From positions 1 through 51,157 of the IMG/VR virus record IMGVR_UViG_3300028920_000091: a stretch of DNA of 51,157 bases. One strand, written 5' to 3'. Below, piece after piece: positions 3,610 through 46,770 of the stretch. Each line of letters begins with the position of its first letter. The stretch's first letter is position 1. The notes beneath the pieces are model-generated. The model saw nothing but the letters and a program-made list of their open reading frames with translations. It ran no database searches and was not told the DNA's origin. Origin of the DNA: a virus. A program made the position numbers and the translations under genes.

Positions 3610-4476
3610 ATGAACATAGCTCCAAGACTGGAAATGAAAACCAAGGACAAGGATGTGCGGTTTCCTGCCGTAGTTGAGCCGAAGTATGACGGCGAGTTCA
3701 ATGTCTACTTCAACGGCAAGCTCATCAACAGACACGGAAGGGTGAGGGCCAACACTGCTATCACGGATACGCTCCTAAGTATATTCGGCAGTGACTGTGT
3801 GCTGTATGGCGAGCTTATCAAAGAGGGTGGTCAAGCAGGTGACATCTTCAAGCTCAACAGCGATAAGGATAATCCCACATGCTACATGGTCTTTGATGTG
3901 TTGCATTACCAAGGCGAGGACCTCACAAAGCATCCGCTGATGGAACGGAAAACACTGCTGTCTCAGATATGGGACACTCTGCCCGACGGGGCGGTCTGGA
4001 ACACATGCACGGGTGACTTCAATGTGGATATTGTCCTCGGAACCAAGGTGCATACACATCAAGAACTATGGCGTGAATATCAACAGGCTACCAAGTCAGG
4101 ATACGAGGGTGTGGTTGTAAAGCCACTCAATAGTGTGCTACCTGTGACATCATGGGTTAAGCTCAAGACTGAGTTCACCTCAGACCTCAGGGTCTATAAG
4201 GTGTGCCAAGACCAAGAGCGGATAGAGGTAGAGCATGATGTATACAATGAGGCAGGTGACTACCTGTTCAATGTGGTAACTGGCGTGAAGTGTGTTGATA
4301 AATACAAGAAGGACATCAAGGTGGGTGACATCGTTGAGGTTAAGTATAATCAGATACTGGGTAGTGGGTCATTGAGACACCCAGTGTATGTGCGTAAGCG
4401 TGATGACAAAACAAGAGGGGACAGCATAACTGTCCGCAGAGGAGGTGACGAGAGTGAAGACGAGCAAAGTGAGTGA
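3610..4476 (+). CDS. ATP-dependent DNA ligase, minimal type
   Basis: Seals nicks or ends in DNA by ATP-dependent adenylation. Motif I is EPKYDGEF with the nucleophilic lysine near residue 23. Motif III-like VFDVLHYQG, motif IV EGVVVKP and motif V WVKLKTE follow in order, then an OB-fold-like C-terminus (VGDIVEVKYNQ). At 288 residues it resembles the shortest viral ligases, which lack an added DNA-binding domain. Start is ATG 3610 behind GAGGAGGTG; an upstream TTG at 3580 is less likely. Its operon partner at 7547 resembles Ku, suggesting joint action in end joining. Confidence 0.88.
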   Translation: MNIAPRLEMKTKDKDVRFPAVVEPKYDGEFNVYFNGKLINRHGRVRANTAITDTLLSIFGSDCVLYGELIKEGGQAGDIFKLNSDKDNPTCYMVFDVLHYQGEDLTKHPLMERKTLLSQIWDTLPDGAVWNTCTGDFNVDIVLGTKVHTHQELWREYQQATKSGYEGVVVKPLNSVLPVTSWVKLKTEFTSDLRVYKVCQDQERIEVEHDVYNEAGDYLFNVVTGVKCVDKYKKDIKVGDIVEVKYNQILGSGSLRHPVYVRKRDDKTRGDSITVRRGGDESEDEQSE

Positions 4477-5806
4477 CCAGACACTGCGTGAAATGCGTGA
4501 TACCTTAAAGCCACACAGGCAGAACAGCAAGTGGATAGCACACCAGTTGCTATCACAGAGAGGGCAAAAGCTACATCACAGCACGATAAGGCAGAGGTTC
4601 ATTGACATGGGTGAACCACTGGGAGGCAAGAAGACGACACCAAAACCAACACCACAAGGAGGAGGAAACATGAGCAAAGGAACCTTCAAGTTCAAGAAGG
4701 GCGATAAGCTAATCATATCGCACACCTTGCCTGATGATGACACTGTATTACCCGGCATCAATGACGAGATGAGGCAGATGAAGGGCAGGTCAGTGACCAT
4801 ATCGGACATGGTAGATGACAGCAGAGGCAGGATATACTCTGTTGAGGAGTGTGAGTGGGCGTGGCTTGAGGACTGGCTTGAGGTGAAGAAGACCAAGACG
4901 AAGCGTGAGATAGAGGTGAACGCTGACCCGGTAAACCCAGAGTTGGAACAGTTCATACCCAAAGCTGAGGTGTTCGCACACTATGTGGAGAGGGGTGTAG
5001 ATGACAGGCTCGCTACTCACTTGGACCTTCAGGCATCAGGCAAGGGCAACAAGTATCCACTGTTGCAGGGTAAGCAGGGAACAGGGAAGACCATGGCACC
5101 GCAGTATTACGCACACAAGAGGGGGCTTCCTCACTTCCTGTTCTCCTGTTACGAGGACTTCAAGTTACCCAAACTGTTCGGTGATAAGACAATACGAGAG
5201 GGTAACATAGAGTTCATTGAGTCGCTGTTCGTCAAGGCGATACAGGGGCCGTGCGTTATAACCTTTGATGAAATCAATGCGATAAGTCAGCCCAATACCT
5301 ATGACTTCCATGCATTGACAGCCAACAGGGAGCTGTTCATCAAGGATGCTGACAACGGGAACGGCAAGGTGTATAAGTTGCACCCCGGCTGTCGCATATG
5401 CTTTGCTCAGAACCCAAAGAGCAAGAAGTATATCGGCGGTAATGTGAGAGCGAGCAACTTCCTTGGCCGTTGCACTTACATCAGCTACCCGGAGTTCACA
5501 ACCAAGGAGCTTGACAGCATACTTGAGAAGGCACACCCCGACATGACACCGGCAGAGAGGTCACTGTTCGTCAAGTATTACGAGGCTGTGAACAAGACGA
5601 TAGACAAGAGCGAGTTGCCTGTTGACATCAGCATAAGACAGCTCCACAACATGATAGACCTGTGGATGGCAGGCTTCTCACTGCACGAAGCGATAGAGGA
5701 CGGCATGGCTTCGGTTACTGAAGCGATAAGCCAGCCGTCAGCAAAGGAACCGTTGATGACACTGGCCAAGGGTGTGTGGTCAGACCTCAATGAAAGGAGA
5801 GTGTAA
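4454..5806 (+). CDS. MoxR/CobS-type AAA+ ATPase with N-terminal extension
   Basis: AAA+ ATPase of 450 residues. Walker A is GKQGTGKT (residues 206-213), Walker B is VITFDEI near 270, and the sensor-1 region is ICFAQNP. Order and spacing fit the MoxR/CobS group, which remodels proteins together with VWA-domain partners. GTG 4454 lies 8 nt after AGAGGAGG, but a second in-frame start, ATG 4670, has its own strong SD (AAGGAGGAGG) and would give 378 residues without the N-terminal 72. That extension is basic and helical, ending in a Lys/Pro/Gly linker. The VWA gene follows immediately (TAATG), supporting a two-component complex. Confidence 0.85.
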   Translation: MKTSKVSDQTLREMRDTLKPHRQNSKWIAHQLLSQRGQKLHHSTIRQRFIDMGEPLGGKKTTPKPTPQGGGNMSKGTFKFKKGDKLIISHTLPDDDTVLPGINDEMRQMKGRSVTISDMVDDSRGRIYSVEECEWAWLEDWLEVKKTKTKREIEVNADPVNPELEQFIPKAEVFAHYVERGVDDRLATHLDLQASGKGNKYPLLQGKQGTGKTMAPQYYAHKRGLPHFLFSCYEDFKLPKLFGDKTIREGNIEFIESLFVKAIQGPCVITFDEINAISQPNTYDFHALTANRELFIKDADNGNGKVYKLHPGCRICFAQNPKSKKYIGGNVRASNFLGRCTYISYPEFTTKELDSILEKAHPDMTPAERSLFVKYYEAVNKTIDKSELPVDISIRQLHNMIDLWMAGFSLHEAIEDGMASVTEAISQPSAKEPLMTLAKGVWSDLNERRV

Positions 5807-7530
5807 TGGACGCACAAGAAAGGCAAAGGCGTAGGACATTTGACATCATCTCAAAGTTCATGGCTGACAAGAGCAGGGTGAGCCTTGAGATGGTAGAAAA
5901 TGCGATACCTTCATGCAACCCAAAGACAGGACACATCACACTGCCGAGCAACATGAAGACCGAGAACCTTATGGCAGCGTTGGGTCTGCTCGCACATGAG
6001 GCAGGACATATCAGGTTTACCAAGTTTGATTTGTCCAAGGCTGTGCGTAAAGACAGTGACCGGCACATCATCAATGCATGTGAGGATGCACGCATTGACA
6101 AGCAGATGATGGACCTGTTGCCCAACATGCGTGGGTTCTACCAAGAAATGTATGACAGCTTCGCTGAGAAAAGGAAGAAGAAACCAAGCACGGCACCCAT
6201 TGAAGTCAAGATACTTCAGGCCCTCATCAAGAGGAACGAGGGGTTTATGGAGAGTGTGGAGCCTGATGTATACAAGGCCATATCCGGACACAACTTAGAC
6301 CAATACTTCCAAGAAGTGATATACAAACTGTATGACTTGGCCGGCAGCGACACGAAAACCCACAGGCAGGCACTATGGGGTGCCATAGATAACTTCGCCA
6401 AGAGGTTGTTCAAAGCAAAGGAGGAGCATGAACAAGAGCAACAAGCAAAGGGACAAAAAGGAAAATGCAATGGCGGAAATGGCGGTGATGGCAACACTGG
6501 ACAAGGCTCTAACTCCACAAAGGATGCTCAAGGCACTGGCAGCGGGACAGGTGCAGGTGATAAACAAGAGCCTGACAGCGAAGGAGACGATACAGATAGT
6601 GGAAGCGGAGACGGCGATGAGGGAGATGTTCCACAAGGCAATGACAGCGGAGACGGAGGACCCGGCCAGAGCAGGAAGGCAGTCCAAGTCTCGGGCGACG
6701 GCACCTTCAAGGAGAGGCCGAAAGCCAACACCGAACTCAACCTTGACGGCATGGATGAGTATGAAGACGAGAAGCGTGAGCTACTTGAAGCGGACGAAAG
6801 CGTGGCTTATGAGCCTATTACGGAGAACGAACAGATAGCACTGAGAGAGACAACCAAGGTGTGCTTCACGGAGCTGTTGAACATCAAGGAAACCAAGGTC
6901 GTTCCCGAAGGTGAGGTGTTGGATACGGACAACTTGGTAGCGTTCCCCGTAGGTGACATTGATGCTATCTACAAGGACGCAACGCATACCAAGAGGATGA
7001 AGTCAAAGGTGCTGTTGCTGTTGGACTGTTCGGGTAGCATGGAGGAAGAACTCTATGACAAGGTGAGCAGGGAGCAGACAGTGGCAAGCACAGCCAAGTC
7101 CATAATACACATACTTGAGGAGTGCAACCAAGCGTATGGACTGGATGTGACCTATGACCTGCGTGCATTTGGTAACCGATACCACATCTTGAGCAAGGAG
7201 AACTGGGAGCGTGAATACTTCAGGATACCTGACGGCGGCACATCGTTGGAGACGGCCTTCAATGCGTCACTGGAGGAGATGATGAAGGCATGGGATGTGG
7301 ATGGGAACAAGCTCATCCTCACTATCACTGACGGCGAGGTGAACCAGCGAGAGATAGAGGAAGTAAGAAAGAAAATCATAGACAATGCAAGCACAATTAA
7401 AGTCATGGTGGTGGGTGTCGGTGCTTGCCCGGTCGGCCACTTTACCAAGCTGATAACAAGGCACAACATTATCACTGGTGAGATGGCAGACAGGACCATC
7501 ATGGACGCAATAACAGAGATGTTAGACTAA
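5806..7530 (+). CDS. CobT-like protein: HExxH metallopeptidase-like domain plus VWA domain
   Basis: Three parts are visible. Residues about 1-200 carry HEAGH (64-68) followed by NACEDAR (90-96), the zincin-like pattern of DUF2201-type putative metallopeptidases. Residues about 210-300 are a Gly/Asp/Ser/Gln-rich flexible linker. Residues about 400-574 are a VWA domain with MIDAS motif DCSGS (from about 407), GGTS and TDGE. CobT-like proteins pair with CobS/MoxR ATPases, and here the ATPase gene is directly upstream with overlapping stop and start. Several phages carry CobS/CobT-like pairs of unclear function. Peptidase activity is inferred, not shown. Confidence 0.8.
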   Translation: MDAQERQRRRTFDIISKFMADKSRVSLEMVENAIPSCNPKTGHITLPSNMKTENLMAALGLLAHEAGHIRFTKFDLSKAVRKDSDRHIINACEDARIDKQMMDLLPNMRGFYQEMYDSFAEKRKKKPSTAPIEVKILQALIKRNEGFMESVEPDVYKAISGHNLDQYFQEVIYKLYDLAGSDTKTHRQALWGAIDNFAKRLFKAKEEHEQEQQAKGQKGKCNGGNGGDGNTGQGSNSTKDAQGTGSGTGAGDKQEPDSEGDDTDSGSGDGDEGDVPQGNDSGDGGPGQSRKAVQVSGDGTFKERPKANTELNLDGMDEYEDEKRELLEADESVAYEPITENEQIALRETTKVCFTELLNIKETKVVPEGEVLDTDNLVAFPVGDIDAIYKDATHTKRMKSKVLLLLDCSGSMEEELYDKVSREQTVASTAKSIIHILEECNQAYGLDVTYDLRAFGNRYHILSKENWEREYFRIPDGGTSLETAFNASLEEMMKAWDVDGNKLILTITDGEVNQREIEEVRKKIIDNASTIKVMVVGVGACPVGHFTKLITRHNIITGEMADRTIMDAITEMLD

Positions 7531-8802: not shown

Positions 8803-9019
8803 GACTGAAGCTGACCTTGTAGTGTTCCTTAAGTATGCCTACCTCTCAGGCTACAAGGAAGCTTACAAGCTGAGTGTGGAAGGCAAGGTCTGCCCCCGCT
8901 GTGGGGAAACTATACGCAAGAGACTCGCCCCGGACGATAAGACACTATGGAAAAGGATAAGTGTTCACTTCCATAAGTGGCTCTTGTCCATATCTAAGCA
9001 GAACCCGCATCAAGAATAG
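8744..9019 (+). CDS. Hypothetical protein with CxxC, 91 aa
   Basis: ATG 8744 sits inside the upstream gene, preceded by GGAGAAC; the overlap is 59 nt. One CPRCG pair lies in the middle (near residue 50), and the C-terminal half is basic (IRKRLAPDDKTLWKRI). It is the last gene of the plus-strand operon, and its end overlaps the convergent minus-strand nuclease gene by 26 nt. Function unknown. Confidence 0.55.
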   Translation: MTTIPNNPTSKDLLTRKEIKTEADLVVFLKYAYLSGYKEAYKLSVEGKVCPRCGETIRKRLAPDDKTLWKRISVHFHKWLLSISKQNPHQE

Positions 9020-9419
9020 CCACGAACCCACGCTGATATGGCCTCTTAACGCACAGCAAGGGGATACCATTGCCCCCGTATCCCTTTGCTTGTGCAAGGC
9101 CACGCCTGATAAACTCTGCCTTCCGCTTGGACAGCAACCCAACGAACCCACGCATGCTGATGGCAAGTATATCGGAGACCTCTATCTCATGTGATGGTAT
9201 AAGCACATACAGCGTGTGGCTTTTCTTTGTCCCCACCACGAACCCGCAGGTGTAGTCAACCATAAGATACTTGGGAACCTGCTTACCATACTTGCACTCT
9301 ATTGAATAAATAGGATGGTCAATATCAGCAACCCTATCATGGTAACCAACACGGATGTTGCGTTTCCCACCAAGCACATGGGCTACCTCCTTCTCAAGTT
9401 CTTTCCACGCTTTCACCAC
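8994..9419 (-). CDS. Resolvase-like PD-(D/E)XK nuclease, 141 aa
   Basis: The segment DIDHPIYSIECKYGKQVP (about residues 32-49) is the D-(x)-ExK signature of small phage Holliday-junction-resolvase-like nucleases. In that family a conserved acidic residue, an E-x-K strand and a following helix (KYLMVDY) form the active site. A later segment (SHTLYVLIPSHEIEV) fits the next strand. It probably cleaves branched DNA during recombination or packaging. It starts at GTG 9419 (or GTG 9416) after AAAAGGGGGG. It is the last gene of the minus-strand block and converges on the plus operon. Confidence 0.6.
   Translation of the reverse strand: MVKAWKELEKEVAHVLGGKRNIRVGYHDRVADIDHPIYSIECKYGKQVPKYLMVDYTCGFVVGTKKSHTLYVLIPSHEIEVSDILAISMRGFVGLLSKRKAEFIRRGLAQAKGYGGNGIPLLCVKRPYQRGFVAILDAGSA
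9056..9089. other. Stem-loop in the convergent junction
   Basis: GCAAGGGGATAC (9056-9067) pairs with GTATCCCTTTGC (9078-9089): a 12-bp stem with one G-T wobble and a 10-nt loop. It lies 37 nt past the end of the plus-strand operon, within the minus-strand nuclease gene. No long T-run follows on either strand, so it is at best a weak terminator or an RNA end-stabiliser. Confidence 0.35.
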
Positions 9420-9645
9420 GCCCCCCTTTTACTATTTTCTTAGCCGCTTTTTCTATAAGGTCATCCAAGCTTTTGTCCTTCTTCTCGGTAAGCTTTTTCT
9501 TTTCGTTTGACTTGAGCTTCTGTGCCTGCTTAAAAGCACTGCGAATATACTCATTGTGGGTCGCATAAGAATAAGTCGCAGTGAACAGGTCACGCAAATC
9601 CGTATCAAGTAGCCCACCCCAATTTTCTGTTGCTACGATACCCAT
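9394..9645 (-). CDS. Short protein with a capsid-protein-like N-terminus, 83 aa
   Basis: The first 21 residues (MGIVATENWGGLLDTDLRDL, then F) match the start of this phage's major capsid protein (43922-44818) at about 14 positions. The DNA just upstream is also alike (GGGGGTGATAAC before ATG here, GAGGAGGTGATACACA before ATG there). After about residue 40 it diverges into a Lys-rich helical segment (NEKKKLTEKKDKSLDDLI). This looks like a partial duplication of the capsid gene start fused to a basic tail. It could bind capsid subunits, scaffold or host sensors. An in-frame start at 9690 exists but lacks an SD. Confidence 0.65.
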   Translation of the reverse strand: MGIVATENWGGLLDTDLRDLFTATYSYATHNEYIRSAFKQAQKLKSNEKKKLTEKKDKSLDDLIEKAAKKIVKGGRGESVERT

Positions 9646-10160
9646 GTTATCACCCCCAATAGTAACCCGTATAACCAACACGCCCACCACCAGCTATCAG
9701 CCGGACACCATACCTTGACCAAGCCTATCTTTTTGCATGGCCCCCAGCTCCACTCAAAACAATTAGAACTGATGGCGGCCCCGATAAAACCAACACCCGA
9801 CAGCACAAGGATACCAAGCATAGGCAACCAAGAGAACCCATGGCCCACCCAGTAATACCATGCCGGTATCGCACCGCACAGCAACCCGTTCAGGAACAAC
9901 CCGAAGAACCCCATGGCCTGCTCTATTATGTCCGTCCCGGCCCACACCATCTGTATGCACTCATCATAGAACAGGGCTTGGTATATGCCCCAGCTTAAGA
10001 ACACAAGGAACAGGTAGAAATACCAAGGGTATCCACCAAGCAACGCAAAGACAGCCGTCACCAAGCCGACCAACAGGCCACGCTTCCACTTGCCGAAGCC
10101 ATGCTCTCCCCCGATAGCCCACGCAAACCCCATCAGTATCGCCAGTATTATGCCCATCAT
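9633..10160 (-). CDS. Multi-pass membrane protein, 175 aa
   Basis: Very hydrophobic, with about five possible transmembrane helices (for example MGIILAILMGFAWAIGG, LLVGLVTAVFALLGG and YLFLVFLSWGIY). Two adjacent ATGs (10160 and 10157) follow AAGGGGGA. Unknown family; holin, exclusion or membrane-anchor functions are possible, but no diagnostic feature is visible. It overlaps the GroES-like gene upstream by 4 nt and the capsid-like gene downstream by 13 nt. Confidence 0.65.
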   Translation of the reverse strand: MMGIILAILMGFAWAIGGEHGFGKWKRGLLVGLVTAVFALLGGYPWYFYLFLVFLSWGIYQALFYDECIQMVWAGTDIIEQAMGFFGLFLNGLLCGAIPAWYYWVGHGFSWLPMLGILVLSGVGFIGAAISSNCFEWSWGPCKKIGLVKVWCPADSWWWACWLYGLLLGVITWVS

Positions 10161-10444
10161 TCCCCCTTTACAAATGTCGCCAACACATCCATCTCGTCCT
10201 GTAACAGCATCTCCTCCCCGTCAATGACAAGGCCAACCCCTACAAACTTGTCTATCAACACCCGGTCACCCACCTTAAGGTCTATGCACTCATTGGCCTC
10301 TACTACCTTGCCCGTCAGCAACCTGCTGTTTCCCCACAGGTCAGCATCCACCGATTCCGGAAGGTGTATACCGCCCTGAGAAACAAGCTTGGGTATCTCC
10401 AACTGCAACAACACATGTCCCCTCTTAGGCTTTAGTAACATCAT
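10157..10444 (-). CDS. groES: GroES-like co-chaperonin
   Basis: The 95-residue length and sequence fit Cpn10: an N-terminal strand (RGHVLLQLEIP), a mobile-loop region (VSQGGIHLPES), then GKVVEAN, LKVGDRVLIDKF and GVGLVIDGEEMLLQDEMDVLATF. Compare the GroES consensus GKVVAVG, VKVGDxVLF and the end (D)ILAIV. Phage GroES-like proteins (T4 gp31 type) replace host GroES to help fold capsid proteins through host GroEL. No GroEL gene is present in the window, so it would use the host chaperonin. SD is AAAGGAGAG. Confidence 0.85.
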   Translation of the reverse strand: MMLLKPKRGHVLLQLEIPKLVSQGGIHLPESVDADLWGNSRLLTGKVVEANECIDLKVGDRVLIDKFVGVGLVIDGEEMLLQDEMDVLATFVKGE

Positions 10445-11574: not shown

Positions 11575-11689
11575 CACACCCTCCTTTGTTTAGATACGCT
11601 ACGATACATGGTATACAGAACATGCTACCCCACACCTTGATGTGCGGTGTATCGCCGCACTTATCACACCTGAGTATTACTTTCTCCAA
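11465..11689 (-). CDS. Zinc-ribbon-like protein, TTG start, 74 aa
   Basis: TTG 11689 lies in the last codons of the methyltransferase gene. CDKCGD and CIPC at a spacing of about 13 form a clear zinc-ribbon-like site in the first 30 residues. The Gly/Glu-rich remainder overlaps the next gene by 113 nt and may be non-essential tail. The SD is weak, so the start is uncertain, but the cysteine pattern argues that it is real. Confidence 0.45.
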   Translation of the reverse strand: MEKVILRCDKCGDTPHIKVWGSMFCIPCIVAYLNKGGCDGKEEEDSNGERVAGDTKEQCGGHTGAGVQAGEGQV

Positions 11690-12264
11690 TACACACCAGT
11701 CCAGTCTATGATATTAAGCGGCGTTGTTATCTTACGCTTCCACCGGAAGTCTGTCACCGCATATCGGCAGCCCTTGACTGCCCCGTAGTCATCTATGATA
11801 CAGAACCCACCGGGTGAGAGCTTATCATAGAGTATATCCAACACCTCAATGGTTGACCCATACATGTCCCCGTCCAGCCGGAGTATAGCAAGCTTGTCTA
11901 TCGGTGCCGTTGGCAGGGTGTCCTTGAACCAGCCCTCAAGGAAGACCACCTTGTCATCCAACAGGCCCTCCTTCCTGAAGTTATCTTCTACCTCCTGCCT
12001 GCTGACCGCCAACTCCTTACGCCTGTAATGCTTGTCACCATCGTCAGCCCTATACTTGGGGTCGGGGGGCGGTAGCCCACGAAAGGAGTCAGCCACGAAC
12101 ACTCGCCTGCCTGTGTGCATTGACTGCATGAGCATACACATGCCCCCCTTCCAGACACCAGTCTCTATGAAATCTCCCGGGATACCTTCCGCCACGACGG
12201 TATCAACACACCGCATAAGGTTATCCACACGACTGCCGGTAACCATAGTATAATCTTTATACAT
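11677..12264 (-). CDS. TylF-type SAM-dependent O-methyltransferase
   Basis: Strong match to the macrocin O-methyltransferase (TylF/NovP) family. Visible conserved stretches are RVDNLMRCVD (12-21), GIPGDFIETGVWKGG (27-41), VADSFRGLP (58-66), LRLDGDMYGST (129-138) and PGGFCIIDDYGAV (151-163) with metal-site aspartates, plus the terminal DWTGVYWRK. Family members methylate sugar hydroxyls. I take ATG 12264, which overlaps the preceding stop; an ATG at 12348 would overlap that gene by 92 nt. In a phage it may modify a virion or host glycan. Confidence 0.88.
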   Translation of the reverse strand: MYKDYTMVTGSRVDNLMRCVDTVVAEGIPGDFIETGVWKGGMCMLMQSMHTGRRVFVADSFRGLPPPDPKYRADDGDKHYRRKELAVSRQEVEDNFRKEGLLDDKVVFLEGWFKDTLPTAPIDKLAILRLDGDMYGSTIEVLDILYDKLSPGGFCIIDDYGAVKGCRYAVTDFRWKRKITTPLNIIDWTGVYWRK

Positions 12265-12475
12265 CTTTGTCACTCTTGTCTTCCCACGCTTTGCGTATAA
12301 CCGCCCATATATCTTGATACCATGTGCGGTCTGAATAGCCCAGCTCATGCCGTGCTATGTCCACCACCACTTGGATGTCCGAATCGTTATCAGAATTATA
12401 GGCGGTCTCTATCTCCTCATCCCACTCGGAACAGAAGTCCATCAAAGCCTTACGCCTTACTTTGTATTTGCTCAT
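12257..12475 (-). CDS. Hypothetical protein, 72 aa
   Basis: ATG 12475 follows AGGTGGGG. The protein has a basic start (KYKVRRKALMDF), an acidic middle (DEEIETAYNSDNDSD) and a Trp-containing C-terminus. No family recognised. It overlaps the zinc-finger gene before it and the methyltransferase gene after it. Confidence 0.5.
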   Translation of the reverse strand: MSKYKVRRKALMDFCSEWDEEIETAYNSDNDSDIQVVVDIARHELGYSDRTWYQDIWAVIRKAWEDKSDKDV

Positions 12476-43077: not shown

Positions 43078-43853
<776 letters not shown>

Positions 43854-43884
43854 CGTTCTCTCCTTGTTTTCAGAGTCGCCTCCA

Positions 43885-43907
43885 GCGGGGGGCAACACAC
43901 CCCCCGC
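43885..43907. other. GC-rich stem-loop between capsid and head-fibre genes
   Basis: GCGGGGGG (43885-43892) pairs with CCCCCCGC (43900-43907): 8 bp with a 7-nt loop, in the gap between the major capsid gene and the next gene. No U-tract follows on the minus strand. It could stabilise the capsid mRNA 3' end or partly terminate transcription. Confidence 0.5.
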
Positions 43908-43921
43908 CAAAAACAAGCAAT

Positions 43922-44818
43922 TTACGAAACATTGGCACCGTAAACCCATGTCCAGCTTGAGAAACCATAGCTGTAACGGGTGTATACGGACCACTTGCTG
44001 ACATAGGTATCAAAGTCCTTGTCCTTGTTGAACTCGGTCGGTATCCTGTCAAACCACTTCAGGAACATCTTTGAATACCTGCTGTCTATGAGGAACCAGT
44101 TGTTGGTATCGCTCAGGTAATCCCAAACGATAACATTATAGCGGCCCTTCCAGAAGTTGGCAGTGTTGTCCGAACTGTCAACGACCTTATCGGAAGCCAT
44201 AAGTTCCCATGCCGTCTGTTCCAGTTCCGGCGGGACCAGCAATGTGTCGCCCATCGCAGTGCAGAGGTTATCCGTCTCGTCAAGATAATCCCTCATGGCC
44301 AGCCTTGCGGTAGCCAGAGAGGTCTTGGACAGGGCCGTAGTCCCTATGTTGCTCTGGGTTGTGGCAGTGCCGACCCAAGTGTGGCCCGAGGCACACAGAG
44401 CTTGGGAGTCACCACCAGCGAACACACTGGTATTAAACGCACTGTTGAACACAGACGCAGCATGCTTTTCCCGTGTGCGTTTTGCCGAGACAGCAAGCTG
44501 CTGAGGTCTGCGGTTTATGATGCTGTAAAGGTCATCATCCACCAGCTTCCTCTCTATTTTCATACCCTTCACCCACTCCTTGTGGGTATAGGATATGCGA
44601 TACTGACCTTCAAAGTCCGTGTAGGGAATTGTCCCCGTGAACTCCTCAAGGTCACCTATTCCGCCTATGGCATAGTCGTATTCAACGGCTTTACCAGAGG
44701 TTTCCACGCCGTAGAGTTTCTCTGACTGCGTGTCGGGTAGGCTGTATTCGTCAAGGAATATCTTTCTCAGACCGGGGTCTAAGAGATACCCAAAGTTTTC
44801 TGACGCTACAATACCCAT
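43922..44818 (-). CDS. Major capsid protein, Mu gpT-like (HK97 fold)
   Basis: The opening [21 protein letters not shown] matches the LLEPGLRKIF pattern of Mu gpT-type major head proteins. Other matches are [37 protein letters not shown] and an ending rich in aromatic residues ([14 protein letters not shown]). The 298 residues are in the family range. It builds the icosahedral shell. ATG 44818 behind GAGGAGGTGATACACA. A truncated copy of its N-terminus is encoded at 9394-9645. Confidence 0.85.
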
Positions 44819-44840
44819 TGTGTATCACCTCCTCGGATGT

Positions 44841-45633: not shown

Positions 45634-45918
45634 TTATCGTTTACTCCCCCCGGTTTGTTCTATAATGTCCCTGAACTTACCGGCATGCTTGCCACCATTG
45701 GCAAGTGGAGCATACGGATGCATGTCAGGCCGGCCTGATATGTCGTATTGAAAAGGCACACCGCATTTCCTGCAACGATACCGCAGTCGTGTGGGGCCTA
45801 TGTTCTCCACGAACCTTATGGCCTTGCTCTGGCATGTAGGGCAAATCAGTTCGCCCCTATATGCTCCCGGATTTATCCCCTTCTTGAGGATATTTCCATT
45901 GGTTATTATCTCGGTCAT
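45634..45918 (-). CDS. Zinc-ribbon protein, 94 aa
   Basis: ATG 45918 behind AAGGAGGCAGAA. CPTCQSK and YRCRKCGVPF form a zinc ribbon, followed by a Gly/His-rich tail. It lies between the scaffold-like gene and the decoration-like gene. It may be an accessory head factor. No family assigned. Confidence 0.55.
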   Translation of the reverse strand: MTEIITNGNILKKGINPGAYRGELICPTCQSKAIRFVENIGPTRLRYRCRKCGVPFQYDISGRPDMHPYAPLANGGKHAGKFRDIIEQTGGSKR

Positions 45919-46715
45919 TTCTGCCTCCTTGACTTATGCTTCTTGTAGTCCTCCGGCTTTACACCCATGACCATAGCCGCAGCCTGCTCCTGCTGGCTGA
46001 GTGGCTCGTCATCGGATGTTGCCTGTGCGGATGGCGTATAAGTCCCTTGGAGACCCTGCACTTGTTCACCCTTCTGGATTTTAGACAACACTTCCTGCTG
46101 TGCCTGCTGGGTAAGAGCCTCAACCTTCTGACCTTTGACAAGGTAGTAAGCCATGTCAACGATACCCGGCTGTGTCCTCTGTGCCGGCGGCAACGCCCGG
46201 ACATAGTTGTCTATCTCGGTAGCATAAGTAGGATAGTCCTTGTATTTACCCATGGCCTGTGCCTTTTGCCCGTCCACAGCACGCTGCATACCATCGTAGT
46301 GCTGTATCCCGTTCTCTATCATCCATGCCGTAGCCTGCATTGGGTCTTGCTCCCATAGCTGTGCAGCCTGTTGCATAAGGTTCTGCTGAGGCTGCTGAAA
46401 GCTCTGTGCCGGATAATAGTTCTGGGCTGGCGGTATCTGCATAGGCGGTTGGCCATATACCTGCTGTTGTCCCATCCTACTCTGCACCTCCTGCACCAAC
46501 TGGGTGAGGTTCTGCACTTGGTCTCTAAGTTCCTTAGCTTTTGCCCTTTCTTCCTGCAAAGCGGTCAAAGGAACCATTTGCCCCTGTTGTTGCCCAGCTT
46601 GGGCCTGCTGGGAAGCAGCCTGTTGCTGACCCTCTTGGGCCTGCTGGCCGGCTGCGGCCTGTTCGTTTGCAGGGGCTGCCGAACCCTGCTGATTATTTAC
46701 GGCGGCTTGTGTCAT
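45915..46715 (-). CDS. Scaffold-like protein, 266 aa
   Basis: Very rich in Gln and Ala, with a low-complexity N-terminus (GQQAQEGQQQAASQQAQAGQ), a coiled-coil part (LQEERAKAKELRDQVQNL) and a basic C-terminal peptide (YKKHKSRRQK). This layout is typical of phage scaffolding proteins, whose C-terminal basic region binds the coat protein. It is placed between portal and capsid genes, as expected. Start ATG 46715 behind GGAGGTCATAAC rather than the longer frame at 46751. Confidence 0.65.
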   Translation of the reverse strand: MTQAAVNNQQGSAAPANEQAAAGQQAQEGQQQAASQQAQAGQQQGQMVPLTALQEERAKAKELRDQVQNLTQLVQEVQSRMGQQQVYGQPPMQIPPAQNYYPAQSFQQPQQNLMQQAAQLWEQDPMQATAWMIENGIQHYDGMQRAVDGQKAQAMGKYKDYPTYATEIDNYVRALPPAQRTQPGIVDMAYYLVKGQKVEALTQQAQQEVLSKIQKGEQVQGLQGTYTPSAQATSDDEPLSQQEQAAAMVMGVKPEDYKKHKSRRQK

Positions 46716-46770
46716 GTTATGACCTCCATTTACCATGGCTGTTACGGACAACCACGAAACCGATGCAGCG

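Follow-up and report, generated by a model that had tools for sequence, protein, structure and literature searches.

The virus genome analysed here (the window, which is the full 51,157-base virus record) contains a mini-gene whose product begins with a copy of the N-terminal arm (N-arm) of the virus's own major capsid protein (MCP) and continues as a Lys-rich segment (Table 1). Small proteins that likewise begin with the arm of their own MCP occur in a distant relative and in marine phages, and this recurrent pairing suggests that small proteins are docked onto the head during assembly by a reusable tag. Judging from the genes, the copied arm could well be a tag for docking or targeting, by which a payload that varies and is usually basic reaches the procapsid, an interpretation held here with moderate confidence. 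The payloads differ from phage to phage (a Lys-rich helix in the window, a zinc ribbon in the distant relative L037, polylysine in the CRP-901 type, a basic tail in the HTVC023P type), so that the tag is the element common to them.

Table 1. Features of the window that bear on the mini-gene and the major capsid protein.
Feature	Position	Strand	Remarks
Mini-gene, 83 aa, starts MGIVATENWGGLLDTDLRDLFTATYS	9394..9645	-	ATG at 9645, stop at 9394-9396
N-arm copy, codons 1-26 of mini-gene	9568..9645	-	16/26 identical to MCP
Lys-rich helix, codons 27-83 of mini-gene	9397..9567	-	Net charge +7; no family match
GGTGATA, ribosome-binding-type element before mini-gene ATG	9648..9654	-	Motif as before MCP
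Co-chaperonin GroES (Cpn10)	10157..10444	-	One gene upstream of mini-gene
175-aa hydrophobic protein, probably membrane	9633..10160	-	Between GroES and mini-gene; no relatives found
141-aa protein overlapping mini-gene end	8994..9419	-	Nuclease-like by eye; no family match
Major capsid protein, 298 aa	43922..44818	-	Phage_capsid_4 / Mu-like gpT family, HK97 fold
MCP N-arm, residues 1-26	44741..44818	-	Residues 1-8 loose, helix 9-25 (model)
GGTGATA element before MCP ATG	44823..44829	-	
Gln-rich 278-aa protein between portal and MCP	45915..46751	-	Candidate scaffold, by position and composition only

The likeness between the two N-termini was first seen as about 14 matches in the first 21 residues. 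It is real and slightly longer, running without gaps from residue 1 to residue 26 of both proteins with 16 identities (E 1e-7). A search of the entire record gave no match other than the mini-gene itself and the MCP start. When MCP residues 1–30 were compared with the 611 other ORFs, the mini-gene scored 74 (Gumbel P 1.9e-8, or about 2e-8 genome-wide), against a maximum of 46 in 500 shuffles. In structural terms the copied stretch is the modelled N-arm and nothing beyond it. The MCP model, built from 38 sequences (pLDDT 85, pTM 0.80), has a loose start and a helix (Table 1) followed by an HK97-type core, with which the Foldseek fold matches agree; the MCP similarity of the mini-protein ends at residue 26, and the HK97-fold core is absent from it. 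Residues P15 and G16 are invariant across 45 MCPs, and the mini-protein has T15 and D16 instead, so any docking need not be exactly like that of the MCP. The remainder of the mini-protein is Lys-rich, as the earlier note had it, with 13 Lys residues in the whole protein; the helix of that note agrees with a model from one sequence in which, at low confidence, residues 27–83 form a single long helix. No Pfam or PHROGs match to the mini-protein rose above chance level.

The MCP falls in the Mu-gpT family by Pfam (Mu-like_gpT, Phage_capsid_4) and by profile search. Searching the PDB with the single MCP sequence gave no match, while a profile search reached Mu-gpT-type capsids including those of JBD30 and Mu. 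The N-arm of the JBD30 MCP extends to the adjacent capsomer, where it hooks above the spine helix; at the portal, residues 2–14 of the arm refold into a helix (PMC11445458). Just 3' of the MCP gene in the window is an ORF with a long collagen-like repeat (43116–43994, minus strand), possibly encoding a head decoration protein.

To look for the same pairing elsewhere, the MCP N-terminus of each genome was run against the ORFs of that genome. In L037, an IMG/VR record, a 68-aa zinc-ribbon-like protein starts MEGDMFTKLMEPGLRSIF and the MCP starts MAISEQWAELLEPGLRSIF (score 58, P 9e-6); this payload is not basic. Roseobacter phage CRP-901 gp63 starts MNRASFGKLM and continues as a lysine tail, with MAMNRANFAKML at the start of its own MCP (P 0.003); matches of this type span only about nine residues. 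In Pelagibacter phage HTVC023P, gp50 has MAITRGQISKQVEGKL followed by a basic tail, and its MCP has MAISRSQLVKELEPGL, a marginal match at P 0.05. With motif patterns that were written after examples had been seen, and among loci that are related within each marine clade and hence not independent, a Lys-rich ORF with the arm motif was found in 50 of 50 CRP-901-type IMG/VR loci with enough upstream room, and an arm-bearing basic ORF in 6 of the 11 HTVC023P-type loci with room (12 loci overall), where it is thus frequent but not universal. The CRP-901-type ORF keeps a fixed place in the head block, about 2.8 kb upstream of the MCP gene and two genes before GroES; its 33 distinct products are 31–49 aa long, with net charges of +12 to +20. 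As members of a proposed class of small ORFs whose N-terminus fits their own MCP better than it fits shuffled controls or the MCPs of other clades, those of the window and L037 qualify clearly, the CRP-901-type ones by conservation, and HTVC023P gp50 marginally; for CRP-901 and HTVC023P the weight of evidence lies in conservation within the clade, the single-genome P values being modest and marginal. No N-arm mimic was found in the stretches read from HTVC027P, 023Pt_psg01, DSL-LC04, Pag-Yong1, MW202675, MW202785, MW202796, and QDWS535. Upstream of GroES, HTVC027P (L274) and 023Pt_psg01 (L275) encode very Lys/Arg-rich small proteins, for example MVKGLKKVFKGLKKASKTHAKQAKIVKKHIKKMQKK, which do not have an MCP-like N-terminus.

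In the marine clades the pairing is largely specific to the MCP. In a control that covers these two clades only, as an overlap rule removed the window mini-gene and the L037 MCP was not recognised, a small-ORF partner scoring at least 35 was found for 66% of MCP N-termini in the CRP group, as against 1.7% of other long ORFs, and for 15% as against 1.2% in the HTVC group. Among ORFs of at least 100 aa in the marine loci, the MCP N-terminus was shared by a single basic ORF of 107 aa, which is of the same kind. When six small proteins were scored against seven MCPs, those of the window (74), L037 (58), and CRP-901 (gp63, 45) scored best with their own MCP, and two from the HTVC clade (L125, 61; L139, 36) with the HTVC023P MCP type. 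The exception was HTVC023P gp50, with a score of 37 for its own MCP but 41 for the nearly identical N-arm of DSL-LC04.

If the arm is a docking tag, it would bind at the site normally taken by the MCP N-arm, or on an N-arm reader in the assembly such as the scaffold or portal, and so bring the Lys-rich segment joined to it into the procapsid or onto it. Basic payloads would most likely touch the packaged DNA or leave the head with it, as the T4 internal proteins do. A wider version of this idea, more tentative and on balance doubtful, is that the MCP N-arm is a modular address tag across the Mu-gpT-type superfamily: unrelated payloads would each have acquired the arm of their own MCP, to be placed at procapsid N-arm sites (for example partnerless ones at the portal vertex) and delivered with the DNA or condense it. 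Counting against a tag are the position of the window gene in a DNA-metabolism block, the relatives in its own clade that do not have it, the loss of P15-G16, and the L037 payload that is not basic. Only a few phages are known to have capsid-targeting signals, with receptors that are mostly unclear; one copied from the MCP N-arm would reveal its receptor, either the N-arm site or a reader of the arm. Internal head proteins would then be findable from sequence alone, by scanning each genome with the N-arm of its own MCP, and a hypothetical gene present in every tested CRP-901-type locus would gain a likely function. Small proteins sharing an MCP N-arm were not found described in the open PubMed Central papers searched, although such descriptions may exist elsewhere.

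The mini-gene is in the replication block, as first reported, and not in the head block: genes upstream of it include those for AAA_24, DUF669, and PD-(D/E)XK proteins. The last 13 bases of the upstream gene lie within the mini-gene, as do the first 26 of the downstream gene, a close packing of the kind seen in compact operons. The nearby GroES probably acts in folding of the MCP. Other genes of note in this part of the window are a TylF-type O-methyltransferase amid the DNA-metabolism genes (11677–12348, minus strand; a strong match, E 1e-85) and an AAA ATPase (AAA_5) adjoining a von Willebrand A-like gene (4445–7530, plus strand), a MoxR/VWA-like pair kept by at least four relatives.

This neighbourhood bears on the main rival explanation, that the mini-protein is an assembly modulator: a mimic of the N-arm that fills a partner site (on the MCP, scaffold, portal, or GroEL/GroES) and delays, caps, or chaperones assembly, without being part of the virion. 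The earlier note had proposed control of capsid assembly, and a role linked to assembly is still the best reading, but as a modulator in this form it is regarded as unlikely. GroES lies one gene from the mimic in the window and two in CRP-901; a gene placed among those for DNA metabolism may be expressed before the shell is made; the loss of P15-G16 would suit a competitor that builds no shell; and the refolding of the arm at the JBD30 portal (PMC11445458) also fits. Against this, GroES occurs without an N-arm mimic in G008, HTVC027P, DSL-LC04, Pag-Yong1, and others, often enough to rule it out as an obligate partner, the HTVC023P mimic is far from GroES, and a polylysine tail is unnecessary for a modulator.

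Within the window's own clade the mini-gene is known from one genome. Homologues of the MCP were found in 48 IMG/VR records, and the mini-gene is absent from all 48, many of which are fragments and several of near-genome size (G005, G008, G012). The N-arm pattern, run over all IMG/VR contigs, picked up, besides chance matches, MCPs (some split by introns) and a single divergent MCP-like ORF, but no mini-gene; direct searches of IMG/VR and a phage collection with the mini-protein gave no relative, nor did searches with its two neighbouring genes. G012 has a homologue of the 141-aa downstream protein (L084:1541–1984), but the suggestion that the small gene in the same place as the mini-gene there (L084:1335–1544) is an orthologue of the Lys-rich tail was not supported (P 0.22). 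Next to that homologue, L084:721–1544 holds three consecutive small genes with a similar end motif (DPLREAIEKAVEE, DELQRTIDEEVKKL, DPVREAIEREVKLL). In several relatives, Group I introns (Rfam RF00028) split the MCP gene at or near the N-arm codons, at L036:6980–7201, L023:5758–6005 and 6070–6268 (two in tandem), and L018:9768–9992, and near the MCP start in L291. The L036 intron is directly before GLRKIF, apparently as in L291/L027, and L036 also has an HNH ORF and two LAGLIDADG-like ORFs in or around the MCP gene.

Relatives with the same capsid protein but no such gene had been named beforehand as grounds for rejecting the idea, and such relatives are what this clade contains. The pair is therefore not conserved close to home, yet similar pairs exist in L037, the CRP-901 type, and part of the HTVC023P type. 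Because further clades of the MCP superfamily have this arrangement too, patchy presence in this one does not refute a function.

A single carrier genome and a tail without relatives might also be expected of evolutionary scrap, in which an old recombination fused the start of the MCP gene to a small Lys-rich frame that has no function related to the head. The pattern of DNA changes makes this improbable. Over the 26 codons, 43 of 78 bases are identical between the mini-gene and the MCP gene, and 11 of the 16 identical residues have different codons (e.g., CGT/AGA for Arg and TCT/AGC for Ser). With the start codon excluded, 35 of 75 bases have changed and yet 15 of 25 residues are the same; in 20,000 neutral simulations with this many changes, a mean of 6.6 and a maximum of 13 residues stayed identical. 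Selection must therefore have preserved these residues, or moved them closer to the MCP, over a long time. The copy is old, with saturated synonymous sites and conservation at the protein level, and the mini-gene is not a recent scrap of the MCP gene. The partial gene duplication proposed previously thus stands in that the MCP start is present as a separate gene, with the qualification that the copy is old and under constraint as protein. That comparable pairs are also found in three other clades argues against scrap as well.

The DNA around the two starts is similar, as had been noticed, mainly through the GGTGATA before each ATG, and identity in the coding sequence is best in codons 1–8. This raises the question of a shared translation-start element, meaning one type of ribosome-binding site and early coding sequence through which translation of the two genes is coordinated, for which a peak of DNA identity from GGTGATA to codon 8 would be expected. 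GGTGATA is near the general 16S-pairing (ribosome-binding) sequence. Such an element is nevertheless very improbable: protein identity reaches codon 26 through mostly different codons, the spaced GGTGATA pattern is found at four places in the window, these two included, GGTGATA precedes other ATGs as well, and the upstream sequences of the paired genes differ in the marine pairs. Least credible is the earlier proposal of a decoy against host sensors of capsid proteins. Although capsid-sensing immunity exists (CapRel), a sensor for the arm alone was not found, such an arm could equally activate a sensor as block it, no other sign of counter-defence was seen, and 26 residues that lack the shell fold would hardly pass for a folded capsid protein.

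Proteins brought into phage heads by a signal are known from T4, whose internal proteins reach the head via a conserved capsid targeting sequence and have diverse bodies with lysines that contact DNA (PMC3012670). The arrangement proposed here, in which variable and often Lys-rich bodies follow a common targeting stretch, resembles that of IPI, IPII, and IPIII, although here it is read from genes only. The T4 signal targets the scaffolding core and is not described as common to the MCP (PMC3012670), whereas here it is the N-arm of the MCP itself that is shared. In P1, the first 30 residues of DarB are enough to get a reporter into the head (PMC9024508); the mini-protein would be similar in using an N-terminal stretch as a head signal, for which its likeness to the MCP N-arm is the proxy. 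The P1 system differs in that its authors saw no consensus across the Dar N-termini, that 120 residues are removed from the front of the MCP precursor, and that a resemblance to the MCP is not mentioned (PMC9024508). By sequence the mini-protein belongs to neither family, and Pfam and PHROGs gave no match to the T4 internal proteins. The copied arm comes from the Mu-gpT/JBD30-type MCPs, which have the HK97 fold, and the mini-protein is the arm without that fold. Also alike in design are the small Lys-rich ORFs of the CRP-901 and HTVC023P types, annotated as hypothetical, which as in the window combine an own-MCP-like N-terminus with a basic tail; they differ from the mini-gene in that the copied stretch is shorter (about 9–16 residues), the proteins are far more basic, and the genes are in the structural rather than the replication region.
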